The notes under the pieces are model-generated. The model was given only the letters and a program-made list of their open reading frames with translations. It was not told the DNA's origin and did not search any database. From contig NZ_CP009291.1 of assembly GCF_000767465.1 (NCBI RefSeq), positions 1,877,501 to 1,941,500 on the forward strand: 64,000 bases of DNA. Direction: 5' to 3'. The position numbers were made by a program, and so were the translations under genes. Positions 1-6,379 of this stretch are shown here, piece after piece. Each line of letters opens with the position of its first letter. The first letter of the stretch is position 1. The stretch comes from Novosphingobium pentaromativorans US6-1 (GTDB lineage Bacteria > Pseudomonadota > Alphaproteobacteria > Sphingomonadales > Sphingomonadaceae).

Positions 1-25
1 CTTTGCTAATGGCGCGCTCCTGCCA

Positions 26-50
26 CGGGGCTGGTGCGAACCAAGCCCCG
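26..50 (+). terminator. Hairpin terminator of a gene upstream of the window
   Basis: A stem made of CGGGGCT (26-32) and AGCCCCG (44-50), extended by GGT/ACC pairing, is followed by TTTGATTT. This looks like a rho-independent terminator just before the tRNA gene. The gene it would serve lies outside the window. Confidence 0.45.
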
Positions 51-59
51 TTTGATTTA

Positions 60-146
60 GCGGTCGTGGCGGAATTGGTAGACGCGCAACGTTGAGGTCG
101 TTGTGGGCGAAAGCCCGTGGAAGTTCGAGTCTTCTCGACCGCACCA
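60..146 (+). tRNA. tRNA-Leu (anticodon GAG)
   Basis: The 87-nt cloverleaf has acceptor arms GCGGTCG (60-66) and CGACCGC (136-142), discriminator A and an encoded CCA (144-146). The anticodon stem CAACG/CGTTG encloses the loop TTGAGGT, giving anticodon GAG at 94-96, which reads CTC and CTT leucine codons. A long variable arm (GTGGGCGAAAGCCCGT) and the T-arm TTCGAGT confirm a class II tRNA. Its 3' end is duplicated at 1295-1310, marking it as an integration target; the gene itself is intact. Confidence 0.96.
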
Positions 147-148
147 TC
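133..148 (+). repeat. attL core: 16-bp direct repeat in the tRNA 3' end
   Basis: The sequence TCTCGACCGCACCATC covers the 3' acceptor strand, CCA and two further bases, and recurs exactly at 1295-1310. Duplication of a tRNA 3' end is the usual footprint of tyrosine-recombinase integration. Confidence 0.8.
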
Positions 149-151
149 ACC

Positions 152-180
152 AAATCTAAGTGCCTGTGGCACTTAGATTT
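152..180 (+). terminator. Strong hairpin immediately downstream of tRNA-Leu, carried by the element
   Basis: A 13-bp perfect stem AAATCTAAGTGCC / GGCACTTAGATTT with a 3-nt loop (TGT) is followed by T and a G run. It lies just inside the left attachment repeat and probably ends tRNA transcription, standing in for the hairpin at 1310-1337 that the insertion moved away. Confidence 0.6.
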
Positions 181-201
181 TGGGGTGAACTCTCAAAACC
201 C

Positions 202-223
202 ATTCCACCCTCTGTTCCACCCT
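202..223 (+). repeat. Left pair of TTCCACC repeats (arm-site-like)
   Basis: Two TTCCACC copies start at 203 and 215, a 12-bp period, within ATTCCACCCTC followed by TGTTCCACCCT. The same motif with the same spacing occurs at 1167/1179 at the other end of the element. Short repeats at fixed spacing inside both attachment sites resemble the arm-type sites bound by tyrosine recombinases. The role is inferred. Confidence 0.5.
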
Positions 224-449
224 ATGCGGGTGAGCTATCCACTGTGCGTGTTCGACAAATGTTCAGGTGGTTGCTACCATTGTTTAATGGATAGATGATT
301 GGTTCACTCCAGTACCTCATGTCGTTCACGCTTGTTTGTTTGCTTGCTCAGACGACCTCTGGATAGTGCACATCAGGGTGCTGGCGCGAGCCAATCATCA
401 AAGCAGCACAGTTGGTGTGTTGGTGCGTGGGAATAAGAGTAAAATCTGC

Positions 450-477
450 ACCCAGTTATCCTCACTGGGTATATCTC
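450..477 (+). other. Small hairpin with T-rich tail inside the element
   Basis: ACCCAGT (450-456) and ACTGGGT (464-470) form a 7-bp stem with a 7-nt loop, followed by ATATCTCTTTTT. It could end a short transcript made from the non-coding stretch 181-450. I see no gene in the roughly 400 bp between the tRNA terminator and the coding region apart from the repeats listed here. Confidence 0.3.
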
Positions 478-576
478 TTTTTACGAGAGACTAATCCAAA
501 AAGGCCAGAAGTGTAGCAATCTCCGCTCTGCCCCACGCACAAGCACATCAAAAATAGCTCAGGGGAAAGGCAAAAG

Positions 577-1152
577 ATGGCTAGTGACAAATCACCAAGG
601 GCTACCCCTGAGGATATTGCGCTGGTCAAGAAGGCCGAAGATGAAATCAAAGCTGAGGTTTCAGTTTTCTCGTTCGACATACCCGCACTGAAAAAGAGGG
701 TGCCGGATGATGACCCAGCGCAAGCCTTCATCCAGGCTCATCTCTACCTCGACCATGTCATCACCCGATTGCTGAGCGAGAGCGTGCCATTCCCTAGGCA
801 CCTTCAGCTCGACCGCACCGGCTTCTCCCAGAAACTCCAACTCGTGGCAGCGATGGGGCTTTTGCATCCGAGCCACATTCCCCCGATCAAAGTGGTCAAT
901 GCCATTCGCAACAAAATTGCACATCAGCTCGACTATGTCGTGAAGTCAGAGGACGAGACGAAACTCCGCTCGTCTCTTCCAAAGGGCACTGACCGGGAGG
1001 ATGATGGAAGTCAGACCTCTCTGGCGGGTTTGCTGCGCCTGCTTGCCGTCATGATAGACGTCGAACGACAGCAGCGGGCATTTGAGCGGACTATGAGAAA
1101 CAGAGCCATGGCAAATGCGCGGGTTGTGTTGGATGGCATCAAAATTGACTGA
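577..1152 (+). CDS. HEPN/MltR-like helical protein, cargo of the tRNA-Leu element
   Basis: This 191-residue soluble protein has no signal peptide or membrane segment. Residues 48-120 carry a pattern of helical families such as MltR/DUF4145 and HEPN: AHLYLDHVI, then FSQKLQLVAAMGLL, then NAIRNKIAH. R111 and H116 form an RX4H motif, the catalytic signature of HEPN ribonucleases, although non-catalytic relatives also carry RNxxAH. The ATG at 577 has a good ribosome site, AGGGGAAAGG, 6 nt upstream. It is the only gene between the attachment repeats, and its base composition is lower in GC than the neighbours. A defence, toxin or regulatory role is possible; no antitoxin gene is visible. Confidence 0.75.
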   Translation: MASDKSPRATPEDIALVKKAEDEIKAEVSVFSFDIPALKKRVPDDDPAQAFIQAHLYLDHVITRLLSESVPFPRHLQLDRTGFSQKLQLVAAMGLLHPSHIPPIKVVNAIRNKIAHQLDYVVKSEDETKLRSSLPKGTDREDDGSQTSLAGLLRLLAVMIDVERQQRAFERTMRNRAMANARVVLDGIKID

Positions 1153-1165
1153 ATCAAGCCATTCT

Positions 1166-1187
1166 ATTCCACCCTCCATTCCACCTT
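1166..1187 (+). repeat. Right pair of TTCCACC repeats (arm-site-like)
   Basis: TTCCACC copies start at 1167 and 1179, again 12 bp apart and in the same orientation as the left pair at 203/215. They begin 14 bp after the cargo stop codon and lie about 110 bp before the right attachment core. A weaker inverted ATTCCAC lies near 1215-1221. Confidence 0.5.
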
Positions 1188-1294
1188 GTCCTCTGCGTTA
1201 CCCTGAAACAGCATGACGTGGAATGAGGACAAAACTGAGTCCGCTCAAAAGCTTTTCGGTCACTATGCTGTTGTATGAGAAGGGTTTTTATGCC

Positions 1295-1310
1295 TCTCGA
1301 CCGCACCATC
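1295..1310 (+). repeat. attR core: 16-bp direct repeat
   Basis: An exact copy of the tRNA-Leu 3' end (TCTCGACCGCACCATC) that is not part of any tRNA. It marks the right end of the inserted element. Confidence 0.8.
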
Positions 1311-1337
1311 CCCTGAATTGACGAAACAATTCAGGGG
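1310..1337 (+). terminator. Hairpin next to attR, probably the original tRNA-Leu terminator
   Basis: CCCCTGAATTG (1310-1320) pairs perfectly with CAATTCAGGGG (1327-1337) around a 6-nt loop. It abuts the attR core, where the chromosome downstream of the tRNA should resume, so it was probably the native tRNA-Leu terminator before integration. There is no U tract after it. Confidence 0.45.
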
Positions 1338-1359
1338 CCTGAGGCAAGGGCGCAGACCA

Positions 1360-1396
1360 GCCTCTCCCCTACCGGAAAGCCTCTCCCCTACCGAAA
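1360..1396. repeat. 19-bp tandem duplication in the intergenic region
   Basis: The unit GCCTCTCCCCTACCG plus AAA occurs twice in a row (from 1360 and from 1379), differing by one extra G in the first copy and one base near its end. It lies between attR and the stop codon of the next gene and is probably a replication-slippage product. Confidence 0.5.
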
Positions 1397-1421
1397 ATGG
1401 CCAGCGGAATTTTCCGGACGG

Positions 1422-2267
1422 TCAGGCGACCGCAAGCCGGGGCGCGGCTTCGATCTGTTCCTCGCCCCGCGTTTCGAGCAGGTCACGCACCACCGCATAA
1501 GTGCGATCATCGTCGACATCGATCGCCTGGCTGCCATCTCCGAGAATGACCGCGCCGACCTTCAGCGCAAGGCGCCGGGAAGCCCGCGCAATCGCCCCAC
1601 AGAGCGTCTCCATCCCGAGCATGACCCGCAGGAGGCCAAGCACTCCGGTTGCGCGCGCGATACGCTGGCCGCTGCGGTCGCCGCGAAACACCTCGATGGC
1701 TCGCAACGCGGCAGGTCCTGACATGCCGTAAAGATCGCAGGCGGCGAATTCACCGTCACGCAGCCGGAGATAATGGCCGTGGCCTGCGCGGTGGGCAGCC
1801 TCCACCCATTCGCGACGGGTAAGGGCAAAGGCGATGTCGGCCGTCTCCAGCGTATCGAGCAGGGCATCGATCGACGACTCGCTCAGCAGCGCGTGATCGG
1901 CAGTGGTCACGATCACCGGCCCTTCCCAGCCTTCGGCGGCAGCGCGCACGCTATCCGCCAGGCTGTCACGCGCGGGAACGAGCGCCACCGTACCGCGCCC
2001 GGGCAGGCGGGTGAGGACATCATATATAGGCTCGAAGCCCTCGCGCTCGATGCATACGGCGAGACTGGCAATTCGCGGATGGTTCGCCGCAGTCTGCAGG
2101 ACATGCGCGACAAGCGGCTTTCCCGCGAGCGGGATCAGGCACTTGTGGCTCACGCCGAAACGCTCCGCGAGGGGATGGGCCCCCTTGCGCGGACGGCCGG
2201 CGAGAACGATCAGACGGATCGGCGGTCCGGCGCGGCCCTGATCGGGCGAGAGACTGCGAAGGTTCAT
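1422..2267 (-). CDS. Nucleotidyltransferase family protein (MobA-like NTP transferase)
   Basis: This 281-residue cytosolic protein begins, after about 16 residues, with the pattern of NTP-transferase (GT-A-like) folds: IRLIVLAGRPRKGAHPLAERFG, then KCLIPLAGKPLVAHVL. The conserved PLAGKPL loop and the later TTADHALL, with an acidic metal-binding Asp, suit nucleotidyl transfer from an NTP to a sugar phosphate or cofactor. The exact substrate cannot be read from the sequence. It is transcribed towards the tRNA-Leu element, with DUF3422 in the same orientation 70 bp upstream. Confidence 0.75.
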   Translation of the reverse strand: MNLRSLSPDQGRAGPPIRLIVLAGRPRKGAHPLAERFGVSHKCLIPLAGKPLVAHVLQTAANHPRIASLAVCIEREGFEPIYDVLTRLPGRGTVALVPARDSLADSVRAAAEGWEGPVIVTTADHALLSESSIDALLDTLETADIAFALTRREWVEAAHRAGHGHYLRLRDGEFAACDLYGMSGPAALRAIEVFRGDRSGQRIARATGVLGLLRVMLGMETLCGAIARASRRLALKVGAVILGDGSQAIDVDDDRTYAVVRDLLETRGEEQIEAAPRLAVA

Positions 2268-2337
2268 GGACTGCGCCTATGCCGCGTACTTGTGACAGCC
2301 CCATGACCGGCGAGTCATTGTCATGGATTGTCGTAAA

Positions 2338-3636
2338 CTACCTCGCCATGGGGTCAAGAATCCGTCTCTTCATATAGTGGATCCCAAGCCACACCGCGCC
2401 AAGCACGAACGGCACCATCAATGCGGTCAGGAAATGGGCGTGCAGGCCCGGCACGACGCTCTCGACTCCTTCCAGCAGCTTCCCCAGCAAGCCAAGCGCG
2501 TAATAGCTTACCGCCACCACCGAGAGCCCTTCGACCAGTTGCTGCAGGCGCAGCTGGCGCGTGGCATTGCGTTCCATCGAGGCGAGGAGGCGCCCGTTCT
2601 GGTTCTCGATGCGCGTCTCGATCCGGGTGCGGAACAGCGAGACGAACTGCGCGGTGCGCTGGGCGAGTTGTTCAGCGCGGCGACGATGGGCAGCGCAGGT
2701 CCGCACCGCCGGAAAGAAGCGGCGCTGGGTGAAATCGGTCAGCGACAGGTGCCCCGGGCATGGCCGGATGTTGAGGTCGGTCAGCCGCTCCTCGACGATG
2801 GTCGCATAAGCCTCGGTCGCGCTCATCCGGTAATCGCATTCGGCCGAGTGGGTGATGAGATCCATGTAGAGGCTGGTCACTTCGTCCAGCAGCGAATCGT
2901 CGGTCACTTCGGGCCGCGCGATGGCGCCGTTCATCTTGCCCAGCATCGCCTCGATGTGATCGAGCCGCTTCCAGCCTTCGCGCGCAACCGGAAGCCCGAG
3001 CAGCGCGAGATTGCGATAGTTGCCCAGTTCCTGCAACCGCTGGACGGTGCGCGTGAGATCGGCGGGCAGCATCCCGTTGGCCGCAACGATCAGGATACCG
3101 AAGCCCTGTTCACGCAGGCGAAAATCCGACCAGATCCGCGCCGAGGCGTCCAGCGCCTCTTCCGTGCCGATCCGGCAGCAGACGAGTTCGTCGTCGGCAA
3201 TCCCGATCTGCGGCAGAAGGTCGCTTGCTTGTCCCTCGTCCTCTACCAGCAGCAGCCGGGTTGAGCGGATCACCTTGCCTGGCAGCGAATTGGCCCAGGC
3301 CACCGCCTTGTCCAGGTCGCTGCCAGCCTCGGGGGCGAAGAGCGCATCCAGCGTGCCATCCGGAATGAACAGGGTGGTCGTGCTGGCTTCGCTATGCCGC
3401 TCCAGCGTGAAGGCGACACCGGGGGCGAACAGGCCCTTCACGTGGCGCGGATTGTCGGCGCAGTCGATCCACGCCCCGTGCGGCAGATCGCTCAGCGCCA
3501 GCCGCTCCGCCTCACGGTCGTGTGCATCGAGAACCCGGACCAACTGGATGACGAGTGACGGCGCCTGCAGCAGGGGCCAGCGTCGCAAGTGCATCTCGCC
3601 GACGACGGTGCGGCGCAACTCGTGTTCATCGTGCAT
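2338..3636 (-). CDS. DUF3422 family membrane protein
   Basis: The 432-residue protein matches the length and layout of DUF3422: a long cytosolic part rich in charged residues and two hydrophobic segments close to the C-terminus (about 375-395 and 400-420, the second ending HYMKRRILDPMAR). Recognisable family stretches include HVKGLFAPG near the N-terminus and a central ATEAYATIVEERL before the coiled, Arg-rich region ahead of the membrane segments. The function of the family is unknown. It probably anchors a cytosolic domain to the inner membrane. Confidence 0.85.
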   Translation of the reverse strand: MHDEHELRRTVVGEMHLRRWPLLQAPSLVIQLVRVLDAHDREAERLALSDLPHGAWIDCADNPRHVKGLFAPGVAFTLERHSEASTTTLFIPDGTLDALFAPEAGSDLDKAVAWANSLPGKVIRSTRLLLVEDEGQASDLLPQIGIADDELVCCRIGTEEALDASARIWSDFRLREQGFGILIVAANGMLPADLTRTVQRLQELGNYRNLALLGLPVAREGWKRLDHIEAMLGKMNGAIARPEVTDDSLLDEVTSLYMDLITHSAECDYRMSATEAYATIVEERLTDLNIRPCPGHLSLTDFTQRRFFPAVRTCAAHRRRAEQLAQRTAQFVSLFRTRIETRIENQNGRLLASMERNATRQLRLQQLVEGLSVVAVSYYALGLLGKLLEGVESVVPGLHAHFLTALMVPFVLGAVWLGIHYMKRRILDPMAR

Positions 3637-3891
3637 TGAACATCCCTGTTGCGATCCCGGCTGCTGCCTGGATTCGATGCCCGCATAATAACGTCAGCGG
3701 GCACGTGGCCTCAACCGGGCCGACGGCTCGGAATACCAATTCCTGCGTCCCGCGCGACCGAAGCCATCAGGCGGCAAGTCATCTTCAATTCTGGGGGTGT
3801 GAAACGGAAAGGACCGCGGCCTGCGCGAAATGCCGCTGGCAACTTCCCGGAATCCGGCTAGCTTCTATGCAAACAATTGGGAGAGCCGGTT

Positions 3892-4080
3892 ATGTTCGTG
3901 AAGTTCACCGCCACCGACAGGGTCCCTGCGATCGTCAATGCCTCGCAGGTCACCTTCATCACTCCGGTGGAAGAAGGCACGCGCATCCGCTTCGGCGAGA
4001 ATCGCACGATCACGGTGATCGAACCCATGGACGAAGTGTGGCGGCGGCTGGACCAGACCGGCCAGCTACCCAGTAGCTGA
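3892..4080 (+). CDS. Small hypothetical protein (62 aa)
   Basis: A 62-residue soluble protein starting MFVKFTATDR. The ATG at 3892 is preferred over a TTG at 3877 because GGGAGAG at 3879-3885 is a suitable ribosome site for it. Alternating beta-prone stretches (AIVNASQVTFITP, TRIRFGENRTITV) followed by a helix (MDEVWRRL) recall the small FlbD-type fold, but no flagellar genes are nearby and identity is too weak for a name. It is convergent with the cytochrome b561 gene. Confidence 0.7.
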   Translation: MFVKFTATDRVPAIVNASQVTFITPVEEGTRIRFGENRTITVIEPMDEVWRRLDQTGQLPSS

Positions 4081-4147
4081 ACCGGCCTGATTGCAGGTTC
4101 GAAACGATATTGTCAGGCTGCGGCCAGTGTCGCGGCCTGACTTGCCT

Positions 4148-4666
4148 TTACAGCATGCGACGCAGGATACCGTCCTTGAGCAGGAAGTGGTGGCGCAAGG
4201 CCGCCGCTATATGCAGGACCACCAGCGCGAGCATCAACCAACCCAGGATCTCGTGTCCCTCGTGTGCGGGACCGGCAAGCGGACCGTCCTTGCTGATGGG
4301 CAGCTTGGGCCAGAGGAACAGGCCGAAGAAACTGAGCGGATACTTGCCTGCCGATGAGAAAATCCAGCCGGTGAGCGGCATGATCAGCATCAGCGCGTAG
4401 AACGCCAGGTGCGTGGCCGATGCGGCCATGCGCTCCAAGGGCGATATGGAGCCGGGAAGCGGCGGTTTTGTCCAGCGCAGGCGCCAGACGATCCGCCCGA
4501 TCGTGACCAGCAGAATGATCAGGCCGATCGACTTGTGCACGGTCATAAGCTGAATGACGTCTTCGAGCGGTTCGTGCAGAAGGCCCGAAGCCAGATTGAG
4601 AATGACCAGAATCGCAAGGGTCCAGTGGAACCACCGGGCTCCCAGGTTGTATTTCTCGACCGTCAT
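4148..4666 (-). CDS. Cytochrome b561-type membrane protein
   Basis: A 172-residue integral membrane protein with four hydrophobic helices. It opens with YNLGARWFHWTLAIL, whose first-helix His is a typical haem ligand of the CybB/b561 family. Further His residues sit in TVHKS, SATHLAFY and LHIAAALRHHF. Such proteins are di-haem b-type quinol oxidoreductases in the inner membrane, often implicated in superoxide-to-quinone electron transfer. A monocistronic gene, about 240 bp from the divergent HerA-type gene. Confidence 0.88.
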   Translation of the reverse strand: MTVEKYNLGARWFHWTLAILVILNLASGLLHEPLEDVIQLMTVHKSIGLIILLVTIGRIVWRLRWTKPPLPGSISPLERMAASATHLAFYALMLIMPLTGWIFSSAGKYPLSFFGLFLWPKLPISKDGPLAGPAHEGHEILGWLMLALVVLHIAAALRHHFLLKDGILRRML

Positions 4667-4909
4667 TTATTGCCCTTATGATAGGGGGCCGAATTGCGAC
4701 CCCCAGCGAAAACGGATCTACGGCGCGCCCGGCACGCCATGGTCCAACGAGCGTTCAGATTTGCGAGTTATTTCATTCCCGTCAAACAGGATTTCATTGC
4801 ACCGGGCGGCCTCGTGGTTCCGCCTTGCGCCGCCAGGTTGCCCCCAAGCTATGGATAAAGGCCACTCGCACCTTTGATTCCCCTGGCCCGCTTGCTTAAT
4901 GCAGGACCG

Positions 4910-6379
4910 GTGAGTGCAGAAATCGTCATCGGCCAGACCCCCAGCGGGGAGGCGATCAGGATAGACATCAAGGAGCTTCTCGCGACCCGCCTGCTGGTGC
5001 AGGGCAATTCCGGGTCCGGCAAGTCGCACCTGCTGCGCCGCCTGCTCGAAGAGAGTGCCGCCATCGTCCAGCAGGTGGTGATCGACCCCGAAGGCGATTT
5101 CGTCAGCCTCGCCGAGGAATTCGGCCATGTCGTGATCGACGGCGCGGCCTATGGCGAGGCCGAGATCGTCCGGCTCGGCGCGCGCATCCGCCAGCACCGC
5201 GCCTCGGTTGTCCTTGCGCTCGACGAGCTGGAAATCGACCAGCAGATGAAGTGCGCCGCGCAGTTCCTCAATGCCATGTTCGATGCCCCGCGCGAACAGT
5301 GGTACCCGGCGCTGGTTGTGGTCGACGAGGCGCAGATGTTCGCGCCTGCCGCCGCCGGCGAAGTTTCCGAGGAAGCCCGCCGCATATCGCTGGGCGCGAT
5401 GACCAACCTGATGTGCCGCGGGCGCAAGCGCGGCCTCGCCGGGGTGATCGCCACCCAGCGCCTTGCCAAGCTGGCCAAGAACGTCGCGGCCGAAGCATCC
5501 AACTTCCTGATGGGCCGCACCTTCCTCGACATCGACATGGTGCGCGCAGCCGACCTGCTGGGCATGGAACGCCGCCAGGCCGAACAGATCCGCGATCTTG
5601 CGCGCGGCCAGTTCCTCGGTCTCGGCCCGGCCATCGCGCGCCGCCCGGTCGCGGTGAACATCGGTTCGGTCCGGACCGGCGCGAAGTCGGTGACACCCGG
5701 CCTCGCCCCGCTGCCGACCGCCAGCACCGAGGACATGCGCGAACTGCTCCACGCCGACCTGCACGTCGAGCCCGAGCGCCCCGAATTCCCGCGCCCGGCG
5801 CCGCGACCGCGCCTCGACGTCGAGGAGCTGTCGGCCAGCATCGCGACGTCCGACAGCGTGGCCGATCCCGCCCCGCGCCCCGAACGGCCCGAACCCGAGC
5901 CGGAAGAAAACCGCGCGGCGATGGTCGAGATCCTCAACGCCATGGCGCAGGAGGAGGACTGCACGTTCCAGTCCTCGACCACGCTGTTCCAGGATTTCAC
6001 GATCCGCTGCCGGATGAAGGGCATTTCGATCCGCGGCCTCGACGCCACGATGTTCCGCCGCGGATTTGCCGCCGCCCTTGCGGGGATCGAGGATCCGGAG
6101 GACGAACGCTGGCTCGACTTGCTCAACCTTGCCAAGCACGTGCCCGACGATGCGCTGGCGACGTTCTACGTCATCGCCCGCGCCGCAATGGACGGAAAAC
6201 CGTGCCCGGACGACATGGAACTGGCGCGCATCTACGGCACCAGCAGCCCGCGCCGGGTCCAGCGCCTGCTCGATTATCTGGAAAAGGACGGCCTGATCGT
6301 CGTGCGCACCGACTTTTCAGGCAAGCGATCGGTCGGCCTGCCCGATCTGGGCGTGACGACAGCCCCCGTCGAGGCGTAA
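4910..6379 (+). CDS. HerA/DUF87-type ATP-binding protein
   Basis: About 489 residues. A Walker A motif (GNSGSGKSHLL, about 32-42) and the adjacent VIDPEGDF are typical of HerA/VirB4-like DUF87 ATPases. Walker B is ALVVVDEAQMF, and the RKRGLAGVIATQRLAKL stretch carries the sensor and arginine-finger region. The C-terminal third, after a Pro/Arg/Glu-rich linker, contains a winged-helix-like segment (ARIYGTSSPRRVQRLLDYLEKDGLI), suggesting DNA binding. The start is uncertain: GTG 4910 gives MSAEIVIGQTP, while an in-frame TTG at 4874 adds 12 residues. The gene is probably co-transcribed with the next two small genes. A partner NurA nuclease is not present here. Confidence 0.82.
   Translation: MSAEIVIGQTPSGEAIRIDIKELLATRLLVQGNSGSGKSHLLRRLLEESAAIVQQVVIDPEGDFVSLAEEFGHVVIDGAAYGEAEIVRLGARIRQHRASVVLALDELEIDQQMKCAAQFLNAMFDAPREQWYPALVVVDEAQMFAPAAAGEVSEEARRISLGAMTNLMCRGRKRGLAGVIATQRLAKLAKNVAAEASNFLMGRTFLDIDMVRAADLLGMERRQAEQIRDLARGQFLGLGPAIARRPVAVNIGSVRTGAKSVTPGLAPLPTASTEDMRELLHADLHVEPERPEFPRPAPRPRLDVEELSASIATSDSVADPAPRPERPEPEPEENRAAMVEILNAMAQEEDCTFQSSTTLFQDFTIRCRMKGISIRGLDATMFRRGFAAALAGIEDPEDERWLDLLNLAKHVPDDALATFYVIARAAMDGKPCPDDMELARIYGTSSPRRVQRLLDYLEKDGLIVVRTDFSGKRSVGLPDLGVTTAPVEA

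Follow-up and report, generated by a model that had tools for sequence, protein, structure and literature searches.

Integrase-free mini-elements at tRNA-Leu genes of Sphingomonadaceae: probable attP cassettes with exchangeable cargo

Anatomy of the element at tRNA-Leu(GAG)

The window analyzed in this study is a 64-kb stretch of contig NZ_CP009291.1 from Novosphingobium pentaromativorans US6-1. Near its start, a tRNA-Leu(GAG) gene is followed by a second copy of its own 3' end, and a single gene lies between the two copies. The features of this locus are listed below.

60-146, plus strand: tRNA-Leu(GAG), the target gene, left intact (ARAGORN; Rfam RF00005)
133-148, plus strand: left core repeat (attL core), 16 bp, identical to 1295-1310
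150-183, plus strand: hairpin immediately 3' of the left core
203-221, plus strand: left arm-type pair, TTCCACC-N5-TTCCACC (P' arm by analogy with lambda)
250-264, plus strand: GTTC-N7-GTTC, a LexA/SOS-type box overlapping the -35 hexamer
252-280, plus strand: promoter-like site, TCGACA, 17 bp, TGC-TACCAT (extended -10)
294-551, plus strand: structured RNA of ~260 nt, with hairpin 1 (294-399) and hairpin 2 (412-551)
577-1152, plus strand: cargo gene for a 191-aa HEPN-fold protein (MtlR/HepS-like) with an R111-N-K-I-A-H116 motif
1167-1185, plus strand: right arm-type pair, TTCCACC-N5-TTCCACC
1186-1294, plus strand: conserved right-end (P-arm-like) region, from arms to core, common to elements with unrelated cargo
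1295-1310, plus strand: right core repeat (attR core)
1310-1337, plus strand: flank hairpin (CCCCTGAATTG/CAATTCAGGGG), read from the sequence

The core repeat, TCTCGACCGCACCATC, is an exact direct repeat of 16 bp corresponding to the tRNA-Leu(GAG) 3' end, and the window holds no third copy on the plus strand. The longest exact tRNA match obtained by chance, in 2000 first-order Markov shuffles of positions 149-1400, was 13 bp. The TTCCACC motifs start at 203/215 and 1167/1179, a period of 12 bp, and account for four of the five plus-strand copies in the 64 kb (the minus strand has five more). Across the whole 5.46-Mb genome, TTCCACC-N5-TTCCACC occurs twice, both times at the ends of this element. 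GC content is 50.8% within the element (149-1294), compared with 63.5% in the adjoining 1311-5000 and 65.9% in the window. The cargo gene fills the right half of the element and is the sole ORF of at least 100 aa within 149-1294. No recombinase is present between the repeats among the listed ORFs, as judged by eye; the family-library search was confined to the cargo ORF. Thus, the exact duplication of the tRNA 3' end, the TTCCACC pairs, the one intact gene, the hairpin, the lower GC content and the missing recombinase are all as stated in a preliminary description of the locus. The promoter with its SOS-like box (250-280) and the RNA with two hairpins (294-551) go beyond that description.

The attP sites of lambda and P4 consist of a long arm, a core and a short arm. 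By this analogy, the two ends of the element together appear to make up a complete attP of the lambda type. The arm pairs lie ~55 bp (left) and ~110 bp (right) from the core in the window element, and paired arm-type sites flank the core on both sides not only here but also in four of the related elements described below (one in genome G146, two in Sphingomonas sp. 35-24ZXX and one in genome G289).

A TAAGT...ACTTA hairpin with at least four T residues follows the core in five of seven aligned left ends, being slightly altered in G524 and diverged in G146. The hairpin at 150-183 is probably a terminator supplied to the tRNA gene, and the flank hairpin at 1310-1337 is possibly the original terminator of the tRNA, displaced by the insertion. 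A 19-bp tandem repeat of 2.1 copies lies just behind attR, at 1359-1397.

A promoter scan of positions 1-1500 returned one site (252-280). Because shuffled sequences yield 0.8 sites on average, the scan alone proves nothing, and the weight lies in the conservation of the site in 35-24ZXX (locus L006) and G146 (locus L005), where the spacing, read from the sequences, is the same. The overlapping LexA-type box, GTTCGACAAATGTTC (250-264), recurs unchanged in 35-24ZXX, and the G146 copy is imperfect. Another box of this form, GTTCTCTCATTGTTC, lies ~50 bp before the LexA domain at the genome's own lexA-like locus, and GTTC-N7-GTTC is given as the Caulobacter LexA consensus in PMC4211646. The cargo gene has one feature expected of a LexA regulon member, a GTTC-N7-GTTC box at its promoter. 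Two such boxes occur on both strands of the window, and simple arithmetic predicts about two by chance, so the argument rests on place and conservation. From these features, the cargo promoter looks as if it is controlled by DNA damage (SOS).

The leader between promoter and cargo gene is predicted to be unusually stable (z -4.1 for 280-576; z -4.7 for its 35-24ZXX counterpart), with two long hairpins in both. In a consensus fold of these two leaders, 7 of 55 pairs are changed on both sides, although two sequences are too few for proof. Leaders of other elements give z -5.5 (G146) and z -3.8 (the second 35-24ZXX element, where the stretch includes a short ORF). No Rfam family besides tRNA is matched in window positions 1-2000, L005 or L006, and the tandem repeat at 1359-1397 is the only one in 1-1500, so the leader lacks the repeats of a type III antitoxin RNA.

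The preliminary description had called the cargo HEPN/MltR-like, and at the level of the fold this holds. The protein is predicted to adopt the helical HEPN fold, and its closest folds are the prophage protein HepS of Gifsy-1 (PDB 9oij, 9oik) and MtlR/YggD (3brj, 3c8g, 6kcr), with 13-16% identity to the cargo over the aligned part. Our literature search found no paper on HepS. The R-x4-6-H RNase motif is present in the form RNxxAH, and residues R111, N112, A115 and H116 are invariant in 23 aligned sequences (the window protein and 22 of the 32 relatives found). PADLOC returned only Csm6 for the cargo (E 0.03). The cargo is probably an RNA-cutting protein. Its role would most likely be anti-phage abortive infection, with the RNA serving as regulator or antitoxin.

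AbiF/RCd22 and type III toxin-antitoxin systems (PMC12373285) likewise place a structured RNA just before a gene for a HEPN-fold protein. However, the leader RNA of the element differs from both in having neither an Rfam match nor tandem repeats, the latter being a key type III feature according to PMC12373285.

The cargo protein has relatives at no more than 37% identity in viral contigs, plasmids and phages. One viral contig encodes a distant HEPN relative (37%), at L031:3323-3964, ~2 kb from an ORF that resembles an integrase by eye (182-1222). The leader of this HEPN relative is not unusually stable (z -0.8).

Related elements and their distribution

A protein scan of genome contigs produced one relative of the cargo protein, from Sphingomonas sp. 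35-24ZXX (Sphingomonadaceae), which is identical at 172 of 191 residues (90% aa). It is carried by an element (no. 1, locus L006) of the same layout, but the target is tRNA-Leu(CAG) instead of tRNA-Leu(GAG). The core repeat fits tRNA-Leu(CAG), the hairpin is present, and the arm pairs are of the GTCACC type rather than TTCCACC. Promoter, RNA and gene are collinear between the two elements. The two HEPN genes differ at 19, 12 and 95 sites in codon positions 1, 2 and 3, respectively, with dN 0.07 and dS 2.1 (NG86) and thus dN/dS ~0.03. The genes split long ago and have been under strong purifying selection; because dS is close to saturation, the shared cargo reflects an old exchange.

Immediately after element no. 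1 of 35-24ZXX comes another whose ends are 84-88% identical to those of no. 1 (131 of 156 columns at the right end, 83 of 94 at the left) and whose cargo is unrelated; a P4-type integrase island follows. An integrase-bearing element adjoins the mini-elements in 35-24ZXX, whereas none adjoins the element in the window. Part of this island (L006:11625-14075) encodes a phosphoribosyltransferase, a small middle gene and a reverse transcriptase, and resembles a type III-A retron (PADLOC 2.8e-65, 1.2e-100).

Homologous right ends of ~150 bp were aligned for six copies from five genomes (the window, G146, the two of 35-24ZXX, G289 and G524), and partial ends occur in G350 and G192. Five elements appear intact, with no integrase among their listed ORFs and with core-to-core distances of 1162, 1182, 1242, 1221 (G289) and 1439 bp. 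Their cargo differs: a HEPN protein in the window and in 35-24ZXX no. 1, a SpoU methylase with a DUF4145 protein in G146, YopX with an unknown gene in G289, and a 163-aa unknown protein in 35-24ZXX no. 2. The G146 element lies at tRNA-Leu(GAG), and its right end is 81% identical to that of the window element over 115 bp; this genome carries 8% contamination. Another three copies are incomplete, either truncated or without cargo, namely G192 (340 bp core to core, right arms lost), G524 (~200 bp, cargo-free) and G350 (truncated right end).

Several observations were made beside these elements. At L024:9748-9965 (minus strand), a cargo-free copy of ~200 bp has one arm pair, as if the two arm pairs had recombined, and is reminiscent of a solo LTR. 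In the G146 element, a near-perfect inverted repeat (ACCAAAACACTTACC) at L005:335-385 lies in the interval that separates the methylase gene from the shared promoter. PADLOC assigned PDC-S06 to the G146 DUF4145 protein (0.0036). Next to the G289 element, L022:11594-13073 contains an AbiEi-like gene (PADLOC 2.1e-83) and an ORF that by eye resembles its AbiEii partner.

Arm class and target do not go together. TTCCACC arms occur at tRNA-Leu(GAG) in the window and at tRNA-Leu(CAG) in G289 and G192, and GTCACC-type arms occur at tRNA-Leu(GAG) in G146 and at tRNA-Leu(CAG) in both 35-24ZXX elements. We read this independent variation, seen in aligned sequences, as a likely exchange of modules.

The family is rare. 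A DNA search of 195 genus genomes matched only the genome of US6-1 itself and G146. A sequence model built from four right ends (R1) matched 8 of 194 own-genus genomes at E <= 0.01, three of them convincingly (the window, G146 and G192), 4 of 9 genomes from the genus of 35-24ZXX (g2) at the same threshold, and 5 of 397 genomes of the family sample at E <= 1e-4. A six-sequence model (R2) matched 1 of 164 order-sample genomes at E <= 0.001, namely the genome of US6-1. The convincing new copies derived from R1 are those of G289, G524, G192 and G350. Filters were stricter, with the loss of weak matches, whenever more than 40 genomes were searched, so the family counts are lower bounds. The R1 match in G009 (25 bits) is an integrase island. 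Own-genus matches in G038, G122, G035 and G054 (18-21 bits) were treated as chance. Among the weak R1 matches, the loci L027, L029 and L030 (18-21 bits) have no match to the query integrases; L028 (18 bits) adjoins an integrase gene but is unsupported (8 to 278 of 300 shuffles).

Phages and plasmids gave no DNA match to the element, and plasmids gave no right-end match. Viral contigs gave no match to the promoter, right-end or GTCACC-arm patterns and three matches to the TTCCACC-arm pattern, all without a tRNA or R1 match.

The right flank of the window element was matched in 14 of 61 relatives. A tRNA scan of eight of these loci located tRNA-Leu(GAG) in two, G082 and G079, which have the same flanking gene behind the tRNA and lack the insert (G082 by sequence, G079 by positions only). 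The preliminary description proposed looking for relatives with an empty tRNA-Leu site and for insertions that share the ends but not the cargo. Both exist, the latter in 35-24ZXX no. 2, G146 and G289, where the ends are homologous. A vertically inherited remnant fixed in the genus, which that description held out as the contrary outcome, is ruled out as the sole explanation by the scattered occurrence (two DNA matches in 195 genomes) and by the insert-free sites.

Search for a helper integrase

Besides the two pairs of the element, the US6-1 genome holds no TTCCACC pair. Its four PF13356 integrases lie at tRNA-Leu(CAG), tRNA-Met, tRNA-Ser and, for the fourth, a place where ARAGORN detects no tRNA in 3.3 kb. 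None of the four is linked to a TTCCACC pair, and for the three beside a tRNA no similarity to the right ends was convincing. A resident helper of the PF13356 family was rejected on the grounds that the TTCCACC pairs are confined to the element and the four PF13356 integrases are unlinked to them.

TTCCACC-N5-TTCCACC is present in 48 other genus genomes. The loci L051-L058 and L060-L090, which carry such pairs, include one tRNA gene (Met) and have no tblastn match to the three query integrases. In the genomes and contigs searched, no integrase was found with the TTCCACC or GTCACC arm pairs of these mini-elements. The preliminary description had proposed looking for a full-length island that uses these TTCCACC pairs; none was found, nor was any larger island with the HEPN cargo or these exact ends in the samples searched.

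One lead is the P4-type integrase island of G009, which sits at tRNA-Leu(GAG). The stretch from its core to its integrase contains a 36-bp match, including an arm pair, to the right arm of G146, with a score of 43 that was reached in 0 of 300 and 0 of 2000 shuffles. With the other ends, the scores of this stretch were reached by 853 (window), 178 and 31 (35-24ZXX), 1091 (G289) and 735 (G524) of 2000 shuffles, and the core of the island is in the opposite sense. Because the match is limited to G146 and the core is reversed, this island can at most be related to the helper. No match was seen between the integrase island of 35-24ZXX and the right ends of the two mini-elements beside it, the scores being reached in 1301 and 1397 of 2000 shuffles. 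The same island does match the right end of the window element (3 of 2000 shuffles), by the core and outside the arms; with 42 pairs tested, this match was given no weight.

Proposed mode of movement and relation to known systems

We consider it likely, with a probability of roughly 0.75, that the window element is a non-autonomous integrative element belonging to a family of ~1.2-kb "attP cassettes" in Sphingomonadaceae, moved in trans and carrying an SOS-linked, HEPN defense-type cargo. The basis for this reading is homologous ends with differing cargo, two tRNA targets, insert-free sites, purifying selection and a predicted fold. The rarity of the family, and the failure to find a matching integrase in the samples searched, count against it. 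The comparison among genomes thus supports the main proposal of the preliminary description, a non-autonomous element; its movement in trans is the part that we infer as probable.

In such a scheme, each element would provide the cis-acting parts for a tyrosine integrase of the lambda/P4 kind: a core (the tRNA 3' end), a short arm carrying one pair (P') and a longer one, ~130-150 bp, carrying the second (P). A co-resident island or phage would lend its integrase in trans to insert the circle at tRNA-Leu, which would duplicate the core, restore the tRNA and add a new terminator hairpin. Excision would require the same integrase and an excisionase. The cargo would be transcribed together with the long structured leader RNA from the promoter that overlaps the LexA-type box.

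The main rival is that the elements are separate decay remnants, in which larger tRNA-Leu islands lost their integrase and most genes and became fixed and immobile. Such remnants are known as CIMEs, which PMC5704250 describes as decayed ICEs or IMEs that retain attL and attR, have no integrase and are moved in cis. The window element likewise retains both att sites (the 16-bp core repeats, each with its arm pair) and has no integration or transfer genes (the cargo gene is the only ORF of at least 100 aa in 149-1294). Tandem accretion with an integrase-bearing island, as described for CIMEs (PMC5704250), is seen in 35-24ZXX but not in the window. CIMEs are a described outcome of island decay (PMC5704250), decay is evident within the family in G192, G524 and G350, and no helper was found in the element's own genome, either through TTCCACC pairs or among the PF13356 integrases. 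However, decay does not readily account for five apparently intact copies of 1.16-1.44 kb, each with its two ends and undamaged genes but without an integrase among the listed ORFs. Nor does it explain why one combination of cargo, promoter and RNA is found at two tRNAs, enclosed by ends of two types, or why the cargo is under purifying selection. Unlike CIMEs as portrayed in PMC5704250, these are intact 1.2-kb units in which the same chassis carries changing cargo, with two targets and two arm classes, and whose parent island was not found. We regard decay remnants as unlikely. Still less probable is passive spread, in which homologous recombination after DNA uptake swaps cassettes between resident remnants with no integrase acting on the mini-form; homology of the ends among strains, a mosaic-like pattern of arm classes and cores, and the resemblance of G524 to an arm-to-arm deletion speak for it, but exact core duplications fitted to two tRNAs, and presence versus insert-free sites, are left unexplained.

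Other known elements resemble non-autonomous attP cassettes in part. MITEs and CALIN cassettes are hitchers of intra-genomic mobility that carry only recombination sites and use a recombinase in trans (PMC11389934). However, MITEs use transposase ends and CALINs use integron attC sites, whereas the sites of the mini-elements resemble those of a tRNA-targeting tyrosine integrase. Tycheposons, according to a second-hand description in PMC10872708, are also tRNA-bounded cargo elements tied to tyrosine recombinases, but they span 4-200 kb and include a recombinase gene, in contrast to the 1.2 kb of the mini-element without one. The literature on integrase-less or sphingomonad tRNA-Leu islands, mostly excluding subscription papers, contained no description of this mini-element family. 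Because CIMEs are described (PMC5704250), the preliminary statement that no family with this architecture is known was too strong: integrase-less att-flanked elements were already known, and what looks new is that 1.2-kb attP cassettes form a family across several species, with ends that can be exchanged.

A broader proposal, which we put forward tentatively and at somewhat less than even odds, is that these elements are the integrase-world counterpart of MITEs. Under this proposal, self-contained attP cassettes of ~1.2 kb would circulate single defense or toxin-like operons, exchanging their arm pairs to change helper and their core to change target tRNA. Their cargo would be coupled to the same SOS signal that also wakes helper phages and islands.

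Both arm classes occur at both tRNAs, and these naturally exchanged arm sites and tRNA cores offer a ready test of what allows an element to switch integrase. If the cassettes move in trans, tRNA hot spots would gain and lose single defense genes without any recognizable mobile-element gene, and island finders based on integrases would miss them.
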